Of a stretch of DNA of 64,000 nt, positions 4,560 through 57,189 are shown piece after piece. The position numbers were made by a program, and so were the translations under genes. The stretch covers positions 7,099,001 to 7,163,000 of the forward strand of contig NC_135366.1 in the NCBI RefSeq assembly GCF_051622035.1, in the 5' to 3' direction. The notes beneath the pieces are model-generated. The model saw only the letters and a list, made by a program, of their open reading frames with translations. It searched no databases and was not told the DNA's origin. Positions within the stretch are counted from its first letter, which is position 1; each line of letters opens with the position of its first letter. The stretch comes from Arctopsyche grandis (Eukaryota > Arthropoda > Insecta > Trichoptera > Hydropsychidae).

Positions 4560-6200
4560 TGTACATTAATTATATTATAAAGTTTGATGTAGTGTCGATT
4601 TGACTTGTCATATGGCATATTAAAGTGATACGGTATAAAGCATAGCTTAAAATTAATCTGATACGATTTTTAGTATCAATTCAAATGAAAAATACACGTG
4701 TTCCAGTTTCAAAAGACACTGTGAATCGGTTAAATCGACCGTTTATTTTCGCCCAAAAATCACACCCCCCTCCACCAAAACGTGCCCGAAAAAAGGCTCT
4801 TTTTGCGAGGAAATCGAGCAAAAGCAAACAATGGGGCTAATTGTAAAGTTGGTCGCAACAACCGCGCGTCCGGCAGTACTTGTAAACGAATTTACATAGA
4901 AAAACCGTGACCCGTTTTGAGTTTCGGACGGGTGACAACCACCCCACAGCCGCGTAATCTCTTCGGGATTTCGAAATAATAATAACAATTAAAAATAAAA
5001 TGAAAAAAAGAACCGGCACAGAAGAAACAAAACGTCCGAATGAATGCAAAAAAAAAAAGTAATTAATCAAGCGACCCTCTCGACTCGGCGTTAAAAAAGC
5101 GGGCGAACAATCTAGAACAATCTACGAAACAAAAGGGAAGTTCTGGTGGAAGTGCGAAGTTTACCTTATTACTGGGGAGGCTGCGCTATCGGCGGGGTCT
5201 CTCTCGTCTGTCTCCGCCAGAGAGGAGGAGGCTTCATCCGTTTTTTCAGGATGATTTTTTTCTTTCAGCCGGTTTCAGCTTCCTCTCCATCCGCTTCTTC
5301 GCGTCGTAGTCGTCCGCCGAGAGTGAAAAAGTCGCTGATTAGCTTCCGCTCTGTTTTACCGCGAAGTGCAAAAAAACTTTCGTCGGCTGTGTACTCTTTT
5401 TTTATACGTCTTATCATCTTATTATTACTATATAGGCATACTCAAGATTCAGGTTTTAATATCTGGATATATGTATCTGGAAACTACGCCAAGATTCCTA
5501 TTCTCACTATTTGGAGATATCGCCTGATTGAATTAGACCGTTTGATAATTCTAATGTTCGAGAAAATTCGAAACAGGTCGAAGTGTGAAAAAAAACAAAC
5601 GAATTGAAATACTAATGCTATATATGTATTTTTGTTTTATTCAAAATTTATTAATTGTATGATTTTTTTATTCAAATATTAACATTCAGATTTGACTGAA
5701 TATTTTCGGAAACGTTTCAATGACTATTTTCATATTTCATTGATCAATTTATCAAACAAATTTTTCAATAAATGTATTTATTTCCAATAAATGTATTTAT
5801 TTCCAATAAATGTACGTTAAATTAATAATCCGATATCGGATATTTCGAATTTATTTTAGCCATAATATTAAATAACAAAAAGCTTTTTGCCAAGTGTAAA
5901 TATAAGGTGTAAAATATTCATGAATATGATTAAACCTATTTCCATCTGAAAGATTTTAAATATAGATTGGTTTCAAATTATATTAGGGGATGATTTTAAT
6001 AGAATTCTAAATTGATGCCGTCCCTATGGGACGATATATTTGTATCTATAGGTACATATATAAAAAGAGGATACTTCAAAGACAGCCTCAAAGTTAAAAC
6101 AACATGATTTTAAACCTTGTGAATGACGCAGATTAAATAATATTACATAGTATATGTTTTAGGCGTGTGTATTTGGTCACTCACTTTATTTAGTTTAAAT
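4560..6200. other. Non-coding stretch with a GC-richer island
   Basis: No gene recognised. A GC-richer island spans about 4740-5400. The 153-codon frame at 5146-5607 is rich in Ser, Arg and Phe and shows no domain; I do not annotate it. A 20 bp unit (CCAATAAATGTATTTATTTC) repeats about 2.5 times at 5766-5815. Confidence 0.5.
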
Positions 6201-6222
6201 TATATTTTCGGTCACTGAATGT

Positions 6223-8277
6223 TTGACTACATATATAATACTTTATAATATTTTTGACAGTCATGTTCCTCGGTTCATCAGTTATCCTAATTCGGAACAA
6301 CATCGGCGGGTATTTCCGCCGTGGTTTGGGTGCAAACTTATAGCTGATGTTCGTGCAAAATGGTTGTCTCATAGAAGATGGAAACGTAGCCAATCATTTT
6401 GTGACTATGAGAAATTCCGGACTCTTAGGAAGATCGTGAAACGTGGTGTGAGTGAGCGATATACTGTCTATCTTAATGAGATGGAGAGTGCTATTGCGGT
6501 TAATCCTAACCACTTTTTCAGATTCATTAAGAGTAAGCATATTTCACATGGTCTTGAGCATTCATTCTCATTTGGTAATAAAAGTTTTGACGGTCCTGAG
6601 ATCGCCAATGCTTTTGCTTCATTTTTTAGCTCTGTCTTTGACCAGAGTAAACCATCCCTTAATGCTAGTTTGGCTTCACAAATTGGTACTGAGGGTGTCG
6701 GTATAGACATTCCGCGGGTATCGCTGGGAGATGTTAGGATGGCTATTATGAAGCTGAAGGGGTCTGTTGGGCCTGACGGTGTGCCCCCTGACGTATTAAA
6801 GGTATGCTGTAATTCGCTTTTAGAGCCTCTTCAGTTTATTTTTAACCTTATTCTTGCTTCTGGTAATTATCCTGAAAAATGGAAATTATCTAGAGTCATT
6901 CCTATTCATAAGAGTGGCTCTAAAAATGAGGTTGAAAATTATAGACCTATTGCTATTATCTCGGCTATTCCCAAAATTTTTGACATCATCCTTCACCGTT
7001 TGATTCTTGCGCAGTTTAAAAGATTATTGTGTGATGAGCAACATGGTTTTACACCCTGTCGTTCCACTACCACTAATCTCGCCTGCTTCACACATTTGAT
7101 CATGTCTAAAGTTGACGTTGGTCAGCAAGTTGATGTAGCCTACTTTGACTTTCGTAAAGCCTTTGATCAAGTCAATAATGACGCTCTTTTGATCAGGTTA
7201 GCTGAAGTGGGTTTTTCAACGCGTCTTCTTAAACTCTTTGCTTCTTATCTTAGTGATAGGAAGCAATTTGTTAGATATGGTCTTTATGAATCTCCTTCAT
7301 TTTTTACTCGATCTGGTGTTACTCAGGGGTCCACTTTAGGCCCATTACTATTTACAATTCTTATTAATAACCTCCCTAGAGTTTTATGTAATGCATCATG
7401 TCTCTTGTTTGCTGACGACGTTAAATTATTTTTTGCTGTCAAGGATGAGAGGCAAGCCTCTCTCCTTCAAGCTGATATTAACGCTGTCTTGGAGTTCAGT
7501 TCTAGTTTAGGCCTTGAACTTAATTTACACAAATATGCAATTATGAGCTATGGACGTGCACATTCACTCTATTGTCACGGATATTCCATTAGATCCGTCT
7601 TGTTGAAGCGTGTGGAATCTATTGTCGATTTGGGTATCACTTTTGATCCTCAGCTCACCTTTCACAACCATATCAAAAAAGTCGCTGACGTTTCCTTTCG
7701 TCGACTTGGATTTGTTTTGAGATATGGAAGATTATTCTCCAATCCTTTGTCTTCTCGCTTGCTTTTCAATTCGCTTGTGAGAAGTAAGCTAGAGTATAAT
7801 GCGATTGTGTGGAATCCGCATGAAGCAAATTACTCTCTGATGATTGAGAAAGTGCAAAAAGCATTTCTTCGTTTCCTATATAGGAAAGAATATGGGTATT
7901 ACCCATATCTCTACCCCACTCCTTTCCTTTTGGGCATGCTTGGGTATAATTCCCTTGAACTTCGGAGAAACTTCTCATTAATTCGTTTCGTTCTCCTGCT
8001 CTTACGTGGTAATACGTCATGCCCGTTGTTGCTGGAGCAGTTGGGGCTTTATGTCCCTATTCACTATGTGCGTGGTAGACATCATCATTTGCTGGCTGTA
8101 CCTCCTGCCCGCACAGTCCTTTTTCGAATGGCTCCTATTCCAAGAGCTATCCGACTTCTTAATGAAATCGTTGCTGCCGAGACTGAATGTGATATTTTCC
8201 ACCTTAGTGAGCGTAAATTGTCGGAAATTACTCTAACCCATTTATCTGGTAGTCTGCGCTCATCATTGTTTTCATGA
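6223..8277 (+). CDS. LINE ORF2 fragment: reverse transcriptase
   Basis: Encodes up to 684 residues of a non-LTR retrotransposon polyprotein. Residues 1-130 match the linker between endonuclease and polymerase. The polymerase region follows with GPDGVPPDVLK (about 183-193), a motif A Asp at 309 in AYFDFRKAFD, GVTQGSTLGP (about 365-374) and the catalytic FADD at 396-399. The C-terminal region carries LRFLYRKEYGYYPYLYP. No stop interrupts the frame, so the copy may be fairly young. The frame opens on TTG rather than ATG, and the true protein start was lost by 5' truncation. It is known to copy LINE RNA into the genome at a nicked site. Activity is unlikely without the endonuclease. Confidence 0.9.
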   Translation: MTTYIILYNIFDSHVPRFISYPNSEQHRRVFPPWFGCKLIADVRAKWLSHRRWKRSQSFCDYEKFRTLRKIVKRGVSERYTVYLNEMESAIAVNPNHFFRFIKSKHISHGLEHSFSFGNKSFDGPEIANAFASFFSSVFDQSKPSLNASLASQIGTEGVGIDIPRVSLGDVRMAIMKLKGSVGPDGVPPDVLKVCCNSLLEPLQFIFNLILASGNYPEKWKLSRVIPIHKSGSKNEVENYRPIAIISAIPKIFDIILHRLILAQFKRLLCDEQHGFTPCRSTTTNLACFTHLIMSKVDVGQQVDVAYFDFRKAFDQVNNDALLIRLAEVGFSTRLLKLFASYLSDRKQFVRYGLYESPSFFTRSGVTQGSTLGPLLFTILINNLPRVLCNASCLLFADDVKLFFAVKDERQASLLQADINAVLEFSSSLGLELNLHKYAIMSYGRAHSLYCHGYSIRSVLLKRVESIVDLGITFDPQLTFHNHIKKVADVSFRRLGFVLRYGRLFSNPLSSRLLFNSLVRSKLEYNAIVWNPHEANYSLMIEKVQKAFLRFLYRKEYGYYPYLYPTPFLLGMLGYNSLELRRNFSLIRFVLLLLRGNTSCPLLLEQLGLYVPIHYVRGRHHHLLAVPPARTVLFRMAPIPRAIRLLNEIVAAETECDIFHLSERKLSEITLTHLSGSLRSSLFS

Positions 8278-15100: not shown

Positions 15101-18100
15101 ATACACGACAGCATCCGTCCCCCGAGCAAAAGATGAAAAGCAATCATCCCACACGTCCCGTCCAAAAGGTTTCGTTTCCTTGATGCGGACATGTCACTCC
15201 GCTACACCTGCTTATGTGAATCAATATTTCATCCGAGTGTTCCACGACGGCAGTAGGGAAAAAACGTTGATTGAAAAACTAAGTGAAAAATGACCCACTT
15301 TATATATGTACGTACCTTTATATGTGTGATCGCACGCATCTACACATTTTACAATGTGTAGTTTCCCCCGCGTTGTTTATACTCGCTTGCTTCGTATTAT
15401 ATTATTTATAGTGATCTGAGAGTGCAATAGATTGATTTCAAAAAGTTAATTTATTTTTTTATTTATTTAACATATTAGCCAAAGTGACATTACAGAGATC
15501 TCCAACGCGTCACTGTGGCCGGTCATTCAGTAATAATAACATCATAACAGTAATAATAACTTATAAAAATAACAATATTGACACAACATCATTAAAATCA
15601 TAAAATCATAAAAAAAACATAGATAAAGTAATAACAATCATTCATATTTATAATAGGCAAAATCAACCACTGGCATTCCTCAACAACCACTCAACCAGAT
15701 TAGTATATTTTATATTGAAGAGGTCAATTTCACCAGAAATCCGGTTGAGCAGATATATAGCCCTAGATATAGGAGCCGTTGTCAACATATTTGTGCGAGC
15801 CACAGGAGGAACAAACAAATCACGATATCTCAAGTCCCTGAATTTGCTAGGTGCATTAAACCTAAATTCATTTAGAACCTGAGGATTGTGAATTATCCCA
15901 TTCAACAGCTTAAAAAAGTGCCTTCCCAGTAACATATTCCGACGAGACTCCAATGAGTTGAAACCTAACGCCCCTAATAGGAATGCACTAGGATATAGCC
16001 AAGGATAATAACCATACTGTTTCAAATAAAGATATCTGAGAAACCGTTTTTGGATTCTCTCAATCTTCAATGATTCCATATAATAGAAGAAAATTCCAGA
16101 ATACTACGTACTAAAGATTCATAAAGAATTTTAAGCACCAACGTACTCTGGAAAGGTTTGCTAACTCTTAGTAAGAATCCCAGCATTTTTGTGGCTCGCA
16201 AACAAATATTGTCTATGTGTCGTTTAAATTGAAAATTATTCGAGAACAAGACCCCCAAATCACAATATTCATCCACAAACTTTAATTCAACACCACTTAG
16301 GCGATATGGATAAATCAAGCGATTTGAAGATCTTGCCACATTGAGAACACAGCATTTTTGAATGCTAAAAAATAATTTATTATCGACAGACCAACTTGAC
16401 AGCGCATCTAAGTCCAATTGGAGAAGGGCTGCGTCACTATGAGACTTAACTGTCATAAAAATCTTAAGGTCATCAGCGAATAAAAGATAGTCTGAATACT
16501 TGATTATTTTTGAGATGTCATTAATGTAAATTAAAAAGAATAATGTCCCTAAGTTGGACCCCTGAGGTACCCCAGAATGTGAAATAAACTCATTTGAGGA
16601 ATTAGGGTGAAAATAGACAAATTGCCTCCGATTTTCAAAGTAATTTTGTATAAGTTGCATCAAGCCATTTGATAACCCAAAATTTCTTAACTTCACAAAC
16701 AAAACATTATGGTCTACCATATCAAAGGCCTTCATGAAATCGGTATATACTACATCAACTTGGTTTCCCGCGTCAACCGATTTGGTTACATAATTGGAAA
16801 AACATAATAAATTAGTAACTGTTGAACGAGAACTTCTAAACCCATGTTGTTGATCGATCAAATATGGTTCACAGTGATTGTAGATATACCGATGTAAAAT
16901 TGCCTCGAACACCTTGGCAGGAGCAGAAAGTAGCGCAACCGGTCTATAATTTGTAATTGATAAAATGTCACCTTTTTTAAAAATGGGAACAATTTTAGTG
17001 ATTTTCCAAAAATCAGGAAATATTCCCGAATTTAATGACAAATTGAAGATAAAGCATAGTGGTTGCGTTAAAGGAGCTTTGCAAGCTTTCAACACATACG
17101 CAGGAATGAGATCTGGACCAGCCGAAAGTTTTTGTTTCAGTCTGTTAAAACCATAAATTAAGTCATTTTGATTGCAGCAATCTAGGTTTAGAAAAGGGAA
17201 CCAGCCATTGTCTGATATACTGTTAGACTGACCTTGTACAGATTGACTACTCCGCACAATATTGCTAAAATGTTCACCAAACTTATCAGCAATATTTTGG
17301 GAACCATGTACCTCACAGTTTTCATAAATCATAGTGCCAGGCATATTTTTAGTAAAACGTTTAGAATTAATAAGTGACCAGAAAGCAGACGGCTCCTTAG
17401 ATAGTGCAATTTCACAATTTAAAATATATTTTTTACGGCATTCATCCATAGTTGATTTTACTAATTTACGCAGATATAGAAAATCAGCACGTGCTATGCA
17501 ACATTTCGTTGTTTTCCAAATTTTATGGACGTAAATTTTTCTTTGAATAATCTTAATTAAATCTTTTGAAAACCATTTAGGATACTTATAATCGTTGGAT
17601 AACTGGGCAAATTTCTTTTTATTAAAAATGCCATTACATTCATTATATACAATATTATAGAAGGTGGAAACAGCTATATTTACATCACAACACTTATACA
17701 ACTCATTCCAATTACAATTGGCCAGACTATTTCCTAATTTAACCAGCTTATCTCCATATTCAAATTTCCATCCAGGTATCATTTTTCCATCAGAACACAA
17801 CATATTATTAATATTAAATTTAGCTGAATTAAAAATATTATCAACATCAAGTGCTGGATGATAAATATCCTCTGTAACTAAAGGATTAGACGCTCTTGAT
17901 ACAGATATATTAACACAATCAATATTAGTGAAGATTAAATCTAAAATAGAACCATTATAATTGTTTTTAATAAAATTGATTTGACTTAAATCTAACAAAG
18001 ATAAAACAAAATTAAGATCCTCACCCGAACAGTTCGAGGAGATTAAATTAAAATCCCCAATCAAAATTACACGCCCCTTGGATAAATCTAAAACATTTGA

Positions 18101-21100
18101 GACAATCAAATTAAAAAAATCCCTATAAGATTCAGGCGTTGATCTAGGCGGAAAGTAAACAACACATATATATAATAAGAATGGAATACAATACAGTTTC
18201 AACTTAAGCCACACACATTCACTTCCTTTCTCTAAACGATCAAGTCTCTCTATTGTAACATACTTGTTGCGTTTCACTGCTAACAAAACTCCTCCACCTC
18301 TCGTAGGTCTGTCCTTGCGGAAGATTGAGTAAGTTCCGTCCAGCAATTCCGCATTATGCACAGAGTCGTCAAGCCAGGTTTCCGTTAGTACCAGGATATC
18401 AGCACATTGTATAGCCGAGTTAGAACCTAATTCATCCAGTTTAGACTTAAGGCCTCGTACATTTTGATAAAAAATGGATGTGCTTATATTATTGCCGATC
18501 AATTGAGACTTTCTCGGAAGAGGACGTGGGCATCTTTGTACTTCTCCGAAAAAACCACTCCCTTATACCGGTTCCCTCTGGCCAAAATTCGGACACATTA
18601 ATTAATTTAAAATTATCCACATCCACTGTAATTTTAAAAGATGTACTAAAAGAAGTCTTTCGTAATTGATCTACTAAAACGTTATCATGGCCCAGTTTTT
18701 TTGATACATATTCTTTAACTGCTTCCACAGTACAATCGTTCGTTAGGTGGAAAATATGTAGATATTTTCTAATTTTCGTCACCTGAAGATTGGCATGTGG
18801 TGCTCCTGAACCACGCATAAACGGTCTAGTAGAACGAGGTAGCGAGGGCCGCAAGGGTTGAGATGTCGCCAAAGGATCAGTAGAAGGCTGGTCGACATCG
18901 TGAGTGGATGGCACTGAAGCAGGAACAGACACAGGTTCTGAGCGTGGTAGCGAGGGCTGCGAGGGTCGTAACGGCGCCAAAGAACCAACTGTATCACCAG
19001 TGATAGCTGCAGTAGAGACGGAAGCAGAGGCAACAGCCGAAACAATGGCTGAGTCCGAACGGGTCGATGAAGCAGCGTTTGACAGCTGATATCGTTGTTT
19101 ACTACGTCTTGGCCGGCTATTGGTTGACGAAGTATTGCGCTGATTGGATGCAAGAGGCAAAGCAGGTGTAGAAGGGGGCGGAGAGAGTGCAGAGACAGAT
19201 GGTGGTATTGTTGCAATCTTTCCAGCCTCAATTTGAGCAGCCAGAGAACTGAAAGAATCAGCAATGAACAGCTTTAGTTCACGGGAATCCTTGGTGAGCT
19301 GGTCCACTGCATGCTTGAGGTTGGACAACAGATTGGGAGAGTCAGGCGCCCGCGAGGATTCCTCTTCAGCTCGCGCCAACATGGCTATTTGAGAGGTGGC
19401 CTCCATCAAATCAGCCTTTTTTGAGTTTGAGAGGATATTAGTTTTCCCAGACAGGTCATCGGTAATCGCACCACACAATTTATATATCGCTTCGAAGCGC
19501 GACATACTAATTAATAATTAATAAGTATAGACAGAACGACGCACGTCAACCACGTTCAAAAGGCCGGCCGTATATGTGGATTAGTCTAAATTAACTTCTT
19601 ATAGGCCACCCAAACTTTCCGAAAACTCTATGAGACTCTGCGTAGTTTTCGAAAAGTAAGATTTTATATAGTAGGTTTAAGCCTATCTATCGATTGAATA
19701 AAAAATTGGAATACTACAGCCTTTTTTACCCAATTACAATCTTGGACCCAATTACACTGAGCAAAAACAAAAAAATAACCGGAGTGAGGCCTAATCAATT
19801 TTTACTAAGCTTTGATTCACTGAATTCGAATATGGCAATTGGTCTAGCCCAATAACTACATACATGAAATTTTGAGAAAAATATATTTTTGACTATTACA
19901 TTTCTCTAGATAATTAATTATACAAATTTTAAAGCATCAAAAGATCACAAGAAATAGAAAATATATTTGACTAATTATGTTTAATTTTAATTTTACTTAA
20001 TTAAACAGTGGTGGTTTCTGCATTTAATTTTATATAAATTTCATTATATATTCACGTCATTATCTACATATATATGTATATTCAAGACCATAGTGTCTTT
20101 CATTTGAATGAAAGATTCAATTTAAGAATGTATGTATGCTACGCGAGAAAAAAAAATGAATTTTGGAATATTATCGGTAAACTCCTTGGGAAAAAAAGCG
20201 AAGATTTAAACCATATAAATATATATTTATTAAATATATTTATCGATATTTTGGATAAATATAATTGATTTGATATCTTTGATTGATATTTTGAAACTAA
20301 ATTTATAAAAAAATACTTTTACTGTATGAATTTTGGATGATTATTTTTATTACGGTCTTTGAATGAAGCTTTATTAAAAACAGTGTACATACTATGTATG
20401 TATTTATGTGCTTATGACCCAAAGTGAGTTAAGATTTTAATAAATAATCAAACATTATATTTTTCATAGAAATTATCATTATAAATTTATGTATGTATAT
20501 TTTTTTTCATTGAGCTTCAAATGGATTCATTATTCAATATAAAATTTCCAGCGATTTTTTTCTATTCTATAATAAAAGGATTAAAATAAACTAAACGTAT
20601 AAATTACTGCACAATACGGTTGTTTTCTGAGATGACGTTGTTACATCTAGTTGTTGTTATCTGTCGGATCAAACTATCATAATTCATTTAATAAAGTTTC
20701 TGCATATATACATATATATGTACATATTTTTATCGACCTTCCGCATATGTATTTGTACAAATGTATATGTATATACATATATTAGGGTACATAAAAAGCA
20801 ACTTTCCTTGTTATTATTTTTATGCTAAAAATGCTTTTGGTGGAAAAACTTAGTATAGACGTTGAAGAACAAGATATGTAGACTAGATTAAACTAATTTC
20901 ATTCCTTTTAAAATTTTATTTTACATGTTTCGACCTGTCAACAAACACTACTATTTTCACTTAGGTTTTCTTTACTTTTTTGCACAAATTGATCTGTTTA
21001 AACGTATTGTGCTTATTTTATCTGAATAAAATTAATGTGATATGAAACAATAGGATGTCTACTTTTATTCTAGTAAAACAAAATTTGCTCGAATTTGCAT

Positions 21101-53780: not shown

Positions 53781-53788
53781 CATATGTA

Positions 53789-53990
53789 TGTAGGAATGAT
53801 TTTTAAACGAGCCGTAATTGTGGTTGGTCAAACTGCAAGGGATAAAGTATGAGTGTGGTATGCATGGGAAAGACCGGATGCGTGTTGTTATGGTCACTTG
53901 TTGGAGAGCAAGCCCGAAGATGTGTTAATAAATACATAGTTCTGACTTAATCTGCGTTTCACTTGGAATCCTTCACATCCGGATCCTATA
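53789..53990 (+). repeat. 5' LTR (202 bp)
   Basis: Begins TGTAGGAATG and ends CGGATCCTATA. Contains a polyadenylation signal AATAAA at 53927-53932. No difference from the 3' copy was seen on reading both. The 3' end is TA rather than the usual CA. Confidence 0.9.
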
Positions 53991-53992
53991 TT

Positions 53993-54011
53993 TGGGGGCT
54001 TTGTCCGGGAT
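53993..54011 (+). promoter_or_regulatory. Primer-binding-site-like sequence (tRNA-Pro type)
   Basis: TGGGGGCTTTGTCCGGGAT lies 2 bp after the LTR. Compared with the complement of the tRNA-Pro 3' end it differs only by TT in place of a single C. That primer is known in retroviruses and some LTR elements; its use here is inferred. Confidence 0.55.
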
Positions 54012-54098: not shown

Positions 54099-55787
54099 AT
54101 GAAGGCGAAGCCCGTGACGTCGGTGACGTCACGTCAGCGAACACGCCTCACGACGATGATGATATCCACGACGAGAAAGACGACGCCAGTGGCAACGACG
54201 ACGAGGGAGATACCACAGTTCAATTTCCGAGATCTGGAGGTTGATTTCGGTCTGCCGAAATATAACGGCAGAAATAGCCCTATTGCAGTGTGGATTGAGC
54301 GCCTCGAAGAAAACGCGCAAATCCTCGGCTGGACGGAGACACAACAGTTGGTGTATGGGCGGATGCTGTGTGAAGGAACTGCCAAGAACTTCTTGGACTC
54401 GGAAACGGGCATAATCACGTGGGCGATATTAAAAGAACGATTGACCAGAGAGTTTGGCCATCAGTTGAATAGTGCGGACGTGCACAGAGAACTGAGGTTA
54501 GAGAAAAAGGGAAAAGCAGAAGACAGTTTAAGCTATATCTACCGGATGAAGGGGATTGCAGCCAAGTGTAGTTTTATTGAGGAAGAGGCGATTATCGCGT
54601 ACATAATTGGTGGACTTGGGTTTGATAAGTACGAAAAATTGATTCTGAGCTGGGCTGGATCTATTAAGGAGCTGAAGACGCGAATTACGCAGTGCGAGAA
54701 AATTAGAGAGGACGACGAACCCAGGGTGACGGGGCCCGTGAGAAACCGTGAAAACCGAGAAAGACTGAGTTCACGATGCTACAATTGTGGTGGACGTGGT
54801 CATTTAGCAGCCGACTGTAGGTTTAAGACGAGAGGAACTCGTTGTTTCAATTGTAACGAGTTTGGGCACATATCAGCTCAATGTAACAGCACCAAAACAA
54901 AGACTGTCTTGACAATACAAGAAGAAATAAGAGAACCAGTCAGTATTCCAATACAAGAAGAAATAAGAGAACCAGTCAGTATTCTAACACAAGAGGACGA
55001 GGCGAACATGGCTGATGGAGATGTAAACATGGCCGATGTAAGTGTGAACAGTGATGGTTTGCACAGAAAAAGACCTTTGCAGCAACGGGCTTCACGAGAG
55101 ATGTCTGCTCAAAGAGAACTCATTGTTTCCAATAATGAAGAGGACGATGCGAACATGGCTGATGGAGATGTAAACATGGCTGATGTAAGTGTGAACAGTG
55201 ATGGTTTGCACAGAAAAAGACCTTTGCAGCAACGGGCTTCACGAGAGATGTCTGCTCAAAGAGAACTCATTGTTTCCAATGATGAAGAGGACGATGCGAA
55301 CATGGCTGATGGAGGTGTGAACCTGGCTGATGGAAGTATGGACGGTGATGGATTGCAAAGAAGAAGACTTTGGGACTACGGAGACATACCGTTTTCAAAT
55401 ACAGATGAACCACCCGATGATCAATTTGGAAAAGGATCTAAGGATTATAGTCATTTGAAGAATTCTGAAGATGAGAATAAAGAAAAGGAAAAACATAAAG
55501 ACAAAGAGAAAGATATGGCTAAATCACAAGAAGGATTAAGGGACCCAGTCAAAATTTCAACACCAAAAGACACTGTATTCACTTTCAAGCTCAGTCGTAG
55601 TCGGATTGATGTTAATTCAATGGAAAAGAAAATAGAACCATGGATTGAGAAAAGACTTACTGGATGTATCAGTGAGCTAGAACCAATATGTGTTGACTTC
55701 ATTTATGGTAAATTACTAGCAGAATATCTGTGGGGTGACGGCAGATTCCTCGGACAGTCACAGAGAATCGCCGAGGGCATTGGATAG
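54099..55787 (+). CDS. Gag-like protein fused to a PWI-type domain
   Basis: A 562-residue ORF from the first in-frame ATG (54099). Residues 1-40 are Thr/Arg-rich. Residues 41-205 resemble the gypsy-group retrotransposon Gag (FGLPKYNGRNSPIAVWIERL at 50-69, then LKERLTREFG and a long helical part). Two CCHC knuckles follow: C227-C230-H235-C240 and C249-C252-H257-C262. A 12-residue unit (IQEEIREPVSIP) is doubled at 273-296. A 49-residue acidic/basic unit is repeated about 2.3 times (302-350, 351-399, part of 400-420). Residues 455-478 are Lys/Glu-rich. Residues 490-542 align without gaps to the PWI domain of RBM25, including MEKKIEPWIEKRL (P514-W515-I516) and VDFIYGKL. Gag packages element RNA. 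PWI domains bind nucleic acid and act in splicing complexes. The fusion is visible; its function is unknown. Confidence 0.85.
   Translation: MKAKPVTSVTSRQRTRLTTMMISTTRKTTPVATTTREIPQFNFRDLEVDFGLPKYNGRNSPIAVWIERLEENAQILGWTETQQLVYGRMLCEGTAKNFLDSETGIITWAILKERLTREFGHQLNSADVHRELRLEKKGKAEDSLSYIYRMKGIAAKCSFIEEEAIIAYIIGGLGFDKYEKLILSWAGSIKELKTRITQCEKIREDDEPRVTGPVRNRENRERLSSRCYNCGGRGHLAADCRFKTRGTRCFNCNEFGHISAQCNSTKTKTVLTIQEEIREPVSIPIQEEIREPVSILTQEDEANMADGDVNMADVSVNSDGLHRKRPLQQRASREMSAQRELIVSNNEEDDANMADGDVNMADVSVNSDGLHRKRPLQQRASREMSAQRELIVSNDEEDDANMADGGVNLADGSMDGDGLQRRRLWDYGDIPFSNTDEPPDDQFGKGSKDYSHLKNSEDENKEKEKHKDKEKDMAKSQEGLRDPVKISTPKDTVFTFKLSRSRIDVNSMEKKIEPWIEKRLTGCISELEPICVDFIYGKLLAEYLWGDGRFLGQSQRIAEGIG
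55002..55350 (+). repeat. 147 bp in-frame tandem repeat within gag
   Basis: Units 55002-55148 and 55149-55295 differ at only a few bases, followed by a partial third. Each encodes the MADGDVNMADVSVNSDG ... RELIVSN block. Confidence 0.9.
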
Positions 55788-56010
55788 AATTTAAGTTGCA
55801 CCGATGGAAGTGAAGTGTGCGTTTGTGAATTAGAGAATAAGTGAAATACCTGGAGGGTTTTTAGTTAAGCCTTACTTGTAATTTGATGATTGAAAAGTGT
55901 AATGTTTTATTGCTTTTTCTAGTATTTTTTGGGAAGTGCTTGGTACATTGAATCATGTTTTAATGTGGTTACATGCTTAGAAGAATATAAGATAACTGTA
56001 TTGAAATGTA

Positions 56011-56455
56011 ATTCTAGTAATGTTTTAAAATGTGATTGTTTCTGGTGTAAAGATTTAACCTGTCATTGTAAAGGTATTGATTTTAATGTTTTATTGCTAA
56101 TTCTAGTAATGTTATAAAATGTGATATTTCCGATGTAAAGATTTAACCTGTCATTGTAAAGGTATTGATTTTAATGTTTTATTGCTAATTCTAGTAATGT
56201 TATAAAATGTGATATTTCCGATGTAAAGATTTAACCTGTCATTGTAAAGGTATTGATTTTAATGTTTTATTGCTAATTCTAGTAATGTTTTAAAATGTGA
56301 TTGTTTCTGGTGTAAAGATTTAACCTGTCATTGTAAAGGTATTGATTTTAATGTTTTATTGCTAATTCTAGTAATGTTTTAAAATGTGATTGTTTCCGGG
56401 GTAAAAATTTAACTTGTCATTGTAAAGGTTGTGATACCTTTCTGTTTTGTATTGC
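56011..56455 (+). repeat. 88-90 bp tandem repeat, five units, in the 3' non-coding part
   Basis: Units start at TTCTAGTAATGTT (56011, 56101, 56189, 56277, 56366) and carry AAAGATTTAACCTGTCATTG. Two unit subtypes alternate (TTGTTTCTGG and TATTTCCG). Confidence 0.9.
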
Positions 56456-56739
56456 TTGTAATAATTTTACATAGTAATTGTGATACCTTTCTGTTTTGTA
56501 TTGCTTGAAATAATTTTAAATTGTAATTGTGATGATTTATGTGTAACTTTATTGAAGATTGAATTGTGTTGAAATGAAAAATTGATTTGTAGTGAAATGT
56601 GTAACGATTAATTTGTTATAATTGTAATTGTTATGTAAATTGTAAAATGATTGATGTATAAGTGTATTGAAATGTAGTTGTGATGATGATTGTAATTGTG
56701 ATGTAAATTGTAATTGTGACAATTGAAAGCATGTTTAGA

Positions 56740-56930
56740 AGAATATAAGATGATTTTATGGAATGGAAGATGAAACATTGTTGAGGATGATAGAGGAAAT
56801 GTTTTAAAAGAATGTGAGATGAAACATTGTTGAGGATGATAGAGGAAATGTTTTAAAAGAATGTAAGATGATATATTGTATAGAGTAGAAGATGAAATGT
56901 AAAAGAATGTGAGATGAAATGCTGTAAAAA
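56740..56930 (+). repeat. Short tandem repeats near the 3' LTR
   Basis: GATGAAACATTGTTGAGGAT and GATAGAGGAAATGTTTTAAA occur twice, and AGAATGTGAGATGAAA-like words recur. No strong polypurine tract is seen directly before the 3' LTR (only GGAATGACCGAAA). Confidence 0.8.
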
Positions 56931-56983
56931 TATAAAAGACAGAATGTCATCCGAGGGCGAATGACAGTCAGGAATGACCGAAA

Positions 56984-57185
56984 TGTAGGAATGATTTTTA
57001 AACGAGCCGTAATTGTGGTTGGTCAAACTGCAAGGGATAAAGTATGAGTGTGGTATGCATGGGAAAGACCGGATGCGTGTTGTTATGGTCACTTGTTGGA
57101 GAGCAAGCCCGAAGATGTGTTAATAAATACATAGTTCTGACTTAATCTGCGTTTCACTTGGAATCCTTCACATCCGGATCCTATA
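56984..57185 (+). repeat. 3' LTR (202 bp)
   Basis: Base-for-base match by eye to the 5' LTR, which implies a very recent insertion, or recent gene conversion. Confidence 0.9.
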
Positions 57186-57189
57186 TGTA

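Follow-up and report, generated by a model that had tools for sequence, protein, structure and literature searches.

The open reading frame (ORF) at 54099–55787 (+) of the 64-kb stretch of DNA of the caddisfly Arctopsyche grandis analysed here (the window) encodes a retrotransposon Gag that carries, close to its C-terminus, a 58-codon segment homologous to the splicing factor RBM25, and the frame is enclosed by two identical direct repeats of 204 bp. The explanation considered likely is that of a young non-autonomous LTR element, probably of Ty3/gypsy ancestry, whose Gag includes a piece of an insect RBM25 that was captured once, and whose lineage was mobilised in trans and recombined while the piece mainly drifted. 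In such a scenario, an ancestral gag-pro-pol element would have lost pol and would have taken up the RBM25 piece, probably in one event. The simplest route would be a template switch onto a packaged RBM25 mRNA in the course of reverse transcription, near the gag/protease end. The lineage would then have multiplied in A. grandis with reverse transcriptase and integrase supplied in trans by an autonomous partner, recombination would have joined one C-terminal cassette to two or more types of Gag N-terminus, and the RBM25 piece would have been left mainly to drift within the Gag tail.

Architecture of the element and its Gag frame

The two direct repeats, located at 53788–53991 (+, 5' LTR) and 56983–57186 (+, 3' LTR), were identical at 204 of 204 positions and lay 3195 bp apart from start to start; the element is about 3.4 kb long in total and carries no pol. 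Such direct terminal repeats place the locus among the LTR retrotransposons, and as the LTRs are identical, the element is young. Both repeats contain AATAAA (at 53927 and 57122, respectively). The true start of the 5' LTR is probably the TG at 53789, its exact end being ambiguous by a few bases. The flanks of the LTRs permit a target-site duplication of 4–6 bp (TGTA, ATGTA or TATGTA), which, with an ambiguous LTR edge, is weak evidence; pairs of random places given equal freedom matched over 6 bp in 111 of 5000 cases and over 4 bp in 1002 of 5000. A putative primer-binding site, TGGGGGCTTTGTCCGGGAT, was located directly after the 5' LTR at 53993–54011 (+) and is taken here to resemble the tRNA-Pro type, with one base inserted and one changed. 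No clear polypurine tract was seen in front of the 3' LTR when positions 56920–56983 were read by eye, and a scan of the window with ARAGORN detected no tRNA.

The only plus-strand frame of at least 100 codons between the LTRs was the one at 54099–55787, for which the extent given in the initial annotation proved correct (562 codons without an inner stop). Its 562-aa product, designated P0001, comprises Gag, a linker, the RBM25-derived segment and a tail. Pfam gave no match for the two minus-strand frames, 108 and 112 codons long, and no polymerase, integrase or protease was matched in Pfam by any of the seven other frames scanned between the LTRs (these two and five shorter ones), one of which was matched to a fungal agglutinin below the cut-off (E 0.032). 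The stop codon is followed by a 1.2-kb AT-rich stretch (55788–56982, +) with no long plus-strand frame, in which an 88-nt unit is repeated in tandem about five times and a 49-nt unit several times between 56009 and 56919. In having a single Gag ORF and no pol, the window copy is similar to the TR-GAG elements (terminal-repeat retrotransposons with a GAG domain). No further copies of the LTR, the Gag or the 3' part were detected within the 64-kb window at E 1e-3, and the LTR search revealed no autonomous partner with related ends there. Other retroelement sequences in the window included a non-LTR retrotransposon at 16070–19517 (−), in which an ORF1-like frame without a Pfam match precedes an endonuclease and reverse transcriptase frame (Pfam E 3.4e-8 and 2.9e-25, respectively), and a second reverse transcriptase frame of 692 codons at 6199–8277 (+; RVT_1 E 7.3e-26).

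The N-terminal part of the product had been described as a gypsy-type Gag with two CCHC knuckles. The knuckles were confirmed, as zf-CCHC (PF00098) was found in two stretches of the ORF (E 6.2e-10), corresponding to knuckle 1 at residues 226–241 (54774–54821, +) and knuckle 2 at residues 249–262 (54843–54884, +; residues read from the sequence). Retrotrans_gag (PF03732) was recognised only below the threshold at residues 100–173 (54396–54617, +), with 17.8 bits in relation to a cut-off of 24.1 (E 0.0038), and the relative P0003 was likewise placed under the cut-off (E 0.0004). No RRM was matched in the ORF by Pfam. The acidic repeated linker, also part of the original description, was indeed found and contained two kinds of in-frame repeats. 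A 36-nt tandem repeat (IQEEIREPVS) occupies 54913–54994 (+), with a diverged copy at 55522–55557 just before the RBM25 match, and 147-nt repeats extend over 54991–55431 (+); two of their copies are nearly identical, and the third has diverged (63%) and its match fades past approximately 55372.

The RBM25-derived segment and its borders

The RBM25-derived segment encompasses residues 485–542 (58 codons; 55551–55724, +) and comprises the beginning of the PWI domain together with the residues that precede this domain. When the last 115 residues of P0001 were compared with the PDB using phmmer, the PWI domain of RBM25 (3v53) was the top match (E 4.9e-7), with 58 similar residues aligned without gaps, a span slightly different from the residues 490–542 for which gap-free similarity had been proposed earlier. 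The next matches were an unrelated dehydrogenase (E 0.12) and the PWI-type protein 1mp1 (E 0.16). For P0011, a diverged A. grandis relative, 3v53 was found at E 1.9e-10 and was the sole PDB match at E 0.1. An alignment with the RBM25-like protein P0128 revealed 34 identical residues out of 74, with one 5-residue gap and a pairwise E of 1e-15. The score of the segment with P0188 was 143, the shuffle mean being 26, and none of 1000 shuffles scored as high against this or any other of the five RBM25s used (0/1000 for each). The similarity was thus significant, was best to RBM25 and fell on the insect side of the RBM25 tree described below.

The PWI domain anticipated in the initial annotation did not pass the Pfam profile check of the C-terminus. 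The PWI profile (PF01480) gave 13.1 bits with the 115-aa C-terminus searched alone, the cut-off being 22 (E 0.12); the cut-off was not reached in the whole 562-aa protein, and no match was obtained for the corresponding piece of P0011 searched alone. A full PWI domain was ruled out, as the segment covers only positions 2–30 of the 72 in the profile. In comparison with RBM25 (3v53), the element lacks the rest of the PWI domain, the RBM25 C-terminus and any RRM match. The accessible portion of a publication on RBM25 domains contained nothing bearing on Gag (PMC10639069).

The segment is followed by a C-terminal tail of 20 residues (55725–55784, +), which is common to the copies, was also present in P0011 in the alignment and showed no detectable RBM25 similarity. 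When the tail was compared with the end of RBM25, 1815 (P0001), 1668 (P0005) and 631 (P0011) of 2000 shuffles scored as high, which ruled it out as the end of RBM25. The exemplary RBM25 P0188 continues for 42 residues past KVLAG, and since the element tail is unlike these residues, the piece is internal to the 3' part of RBM25. Of the suggestion that the element had captured the 3' end of a splicing gene, the capture was therefore upheld and the 3' end was not.

On the upstream side, positions 54917–54961 and 55526–55570, the latter just before the RBM25 match, were identical at 35 of 45 nt. This resemblance to the 36-nt repeat of the element itself suggests that the capture junction lies near residue 485. 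RBM25 likeness had also been claimed for the RRRLWDYGD word and the charged stretch located upstream of the segment. RRRLWDYGD was compared with 50 proteins from the second RBM25 search in which a K(L/I)(V/I)PLDY word occurs close to the PWI. This panel left out another 117 proteins bearing the latter word and numbered up to P0131, which derive mainly from the search rich in vertebrates, as well as every protein lacking K(L/I)(V/I)PLDY, including moths as far as aligned. Shuffles of the RRRLWDYGD stretch scored as high in 39 of 500 cases for P0001, 88 of 500 for P0005 and 267 of 500 for P0011, which is a more RBM25-like relative than P0001, so that the likeness of the word is weak at best. The 31-aa stretch after it was shuffle-like (103 of 300 as high; 177 of 300 for P0011). 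As the shuffle controls were not clearly beaten, RRRLWDYGD and the stretch following it were rejected as established RBM25 sequence.

For the whole 73-aa upstream region, the number of plain shuffles scoring as high out of 2000 was 0 with P0230, 5 with P0223, 9 with P0211 and 20 with P0188, and the weaker comparisons gave 145 (P0165) and 897 (P0129). The low counts were not taken as support because plain shuffling breaks up Lys/Glu runs, and with such mixed counts, the similarity of the charged stretch to RBM25 was not established. Some RBM25 homology upstream of the segment is possible.

Relatives in A. grandis, donor and route of entry

Among the best 7,990 candidates scored, the ten closest proteins (P0002–P0011) all came from A. 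grandis; the relatives, apart from the window copy, are database gene models. The eleven clusters, including that of the window, have 53 members in sum, a figure in which the sources may count one protein twice. The segment was carried by nine of the ten relatives (P0002–P0009 and P0011), with the letters PWI kept in all nine, and the tenth, P0010, ends just upstream of it. A check set beforehand, i.e., whether other copies of the element bear the fusion, was hence answered positively, and these relatives support the spread of the lineage. The only other Gag relative found, P0012, matched a protease profile weakly (RVP E 0.0099) and did not match PWI. Six stretches of viral contigs matched a pattern and none of them encodes a relative.

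Two Gag groups could be distinguished, P0001–P0003 and P0004–P0008 with P0010, which have similar starts and different Gag middles, shorter in the second group. The zinc-knuckle part and the C-terminal cassette are common to both groups, with differing linkers and with the end lacking in P0010. The occurrence of such mosaic Gags within one family suggests recombination. ALIDTGSE was noticed in P0011 and ALLGSPIT in P0003, P0007 and P0008, and the two are presumed to represent the intact and the damaged form, respectively, of a retropepsin active-site word. The Pfam RVP profile had no match in P0011 or P0003. As a lead, these words suggest that the ancestor might have had a protease near the capture point.

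An RBM25 tree was built from 48 rows with 58 columns, and all six rows of the element fell into one group (87/74; present in 88% of 200 bootstrap trees). As the element copies fall together in this small tree, one capture is likeliest. The five vertebrate rows, P0129 among them, were split from all the others with 100/98, leaving the element on the insect side. In the same tree, 25 of the 38 inner branches were open, the bootstrap was not settled and the P0011 branch was long; the element was not next to Lepidoptera and its placement within insects was open. P0011 was identical to insect RBM25s at 29–35 of the 58 residues and to vertebrate ones at 25–27 (P0129 being counted as vertebrate-like).

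P0011 reads GRSQID, and most RBM25s of the panel carry a Trp at the second position ahead of the aligned Gln. Ten of the 234 non-element segments had QID and no Trp, the named ones being P0223, P0237, P0238, P0239, P0244 and P0247, which are Lepidoptera (moths), i.e., members of the sister order of caddisflies. Exceptions to the pattern were P0236 and P0241, with neither Trp nor Gln, and P0173 and P0235, with both. The Lepidoptera-like residues may be regarded as no more than a small hint to the donor. No Arctopsyche RBM25 was present among the matches listed in the two profile searches (best 120 of 719 and best 120 of 678).

The piece could also have entered at the DNA level, through recombination with an RBM25 exon or pseudogene instead of a template switch onto mRNA. 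As far as exon-like database ORFs show, the 58 codons lie within one exon, and several of the aligned ORFs diverge right past QMV, 13 residues beyond the match; with the codons inside one exon, there is no spliced junction that would mark the RNA route. Nothing direct speaks against entry as DNA, and for LTR elements capture is usually explained at the RNA level, so DNA-level entry was considered unlikely while keeping some weight, and a template switch onto RBM25 mRNA remained the preferred route.

Fate of the segment and known counterparts

The state of the segment was evaluated with a panel of 234 non-element RBM25 segments, a column being regarded as conserved at 98% or more. If the element had retained an RBM25-type role, fewer differences would be expected between its lineages at positions constant in RBM25. 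P0011 and P0001 differed in 12 of the 31 RBM25-conserved columns and in 10 of the 27 others, with a one-sided p of 0.66 in this small test. At 100% conservation, the differences amounted to 8 of 27 and 14 of 31 columns, respectively (p 0.17), the p values at 90% and 95% were 0.68 and 0.81, and the comparison of P0011 with P0005 gave p between 0.54 and 0.94. The core, with 36 of 58 residues identical between P0011 and P0001, was less conserved than the preceding linker (47 of 67). A working RNA-binding PWI, as proposed initially, is not supported by these sequence comparisons because the segment lacks over half of the Pfam domain and the conserved columns change as often as the others. The counterpoint to drift is that the segment is open and in frame in nine relatives and that 36 of 58 residues are shared by P0011 and P0001, which selection could also explain.

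If the segment were functional, it might serve to tether Gag, or the RNA of the element, to RNA or to spliceosomal particles, the benefit being the retention of RNA in the nucleus, its packaging or its escape from splicing. In favour of such a role, the segment stays in frame in nine of the ten A. grandis relatives, with the PWI letters intact in all nine, behind different Gag halves, and P0005 is closer than P0001 to the nearest RBM25 compared (35 and 31 of 58 residues, respectively). The restriction to Pfam positions 2–30 of 72, the conserved columns varying as often as the others and the core being less conserved than the linker (in a small test) argue against it and make this role improbable. 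The fold model of the C-terminus (pLDDT 52) was too poor to count either way and had no PDB match at E 0.001 (best Foldseek E 7.7), and the model of the whole Gag reached a pLDDT of 34. There is a slim chance that the RBM25-derived tail was kept by selection as a nuclear-speckle or splicing-factor address, or as an RNA-binding aid for the Gag particle; if true, a splicing-factor module would have been reused by a retroelement and handed between Gag types.

That the Gag–PWI loci might be domesticated host genes rather than copies of an element is suggested by their listing at NCBI as gene models (LOC143918418 and others), but it appears very unlikely for a window copy placed between 204-bp repeats without a difference and for relatives that are several and mosaic. 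Similarity to RBM25 by chance or convergence, for which only the score under the Pfam PWI cut-off could be cited, is practically dismissed by the PDB matches (E 4.9e-7 and 1.9e-10, RBM25 on top), by the shuffles against the five RBM25s and by P0011 being nearer to insect than to vertebrate RBM25.

The capture of host pieces in a gag-bearing, pol-less LTR element, favoured here, is best known from maize Bs1, which lacks pol and whose host pieces form a hybrid ORF with gag. According to the available part of the source, Bs1 is an LTR element with transduced segments of three host genes (ATPase, xylan endohydrolase and glucanase), none of them full length (PMC13317346). The A. grandis element is similar in being an LTR element bearing a partial host gene segment; Bs1 differs as a plant element with three host genes, whereas here one short RBM25 piece is found in an insect, in several relatives and with different Gag types. 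The TR-GAG elements, as described in the accessible sections of their report, have two LTRs and one Gag ORF, as does the A. grandis element, and their transposition was reported in an Arabidopsis mutant; they are plant elements, and these sections mention no host piece in Gag (PMC8704663). The nearest known kinds are maize Bs1 and the TR-GAG elements of plants; the kind is known and the animal example is new.

A search of the open-licence literature revealed no Gag described as carrying a piece of RBM25 or of a PWI domain; in the one paper found that names RBM25 together with LTR retrotransposons and gag, the only RBM25 passage deals with chimeric transcripts with MERVL in mouse. Being young, and with several relatives, mosaic Gags and, in P0011, a sister lineage of greater age, this insect element would allow capture, drift and recombination of host pieces to be traced in an animal. 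Among other animal elements, PbTRIM of the harvester ant is likewise a small non-autonomous insect LTR element; the excerpted source describes this kind as lacking an internal coding domain, without mention of a captured gene (PMC3532108). The LTR elements of bdelloid rotifers also bear coding sequence beyond gag-pol in an invertebrate, in their case as separate ORF3s, and the DEDDy-like ORF3s were judged, in the part of the report available, to have been exchanged between retroelements more likely than captured from a host (PMC5408684).
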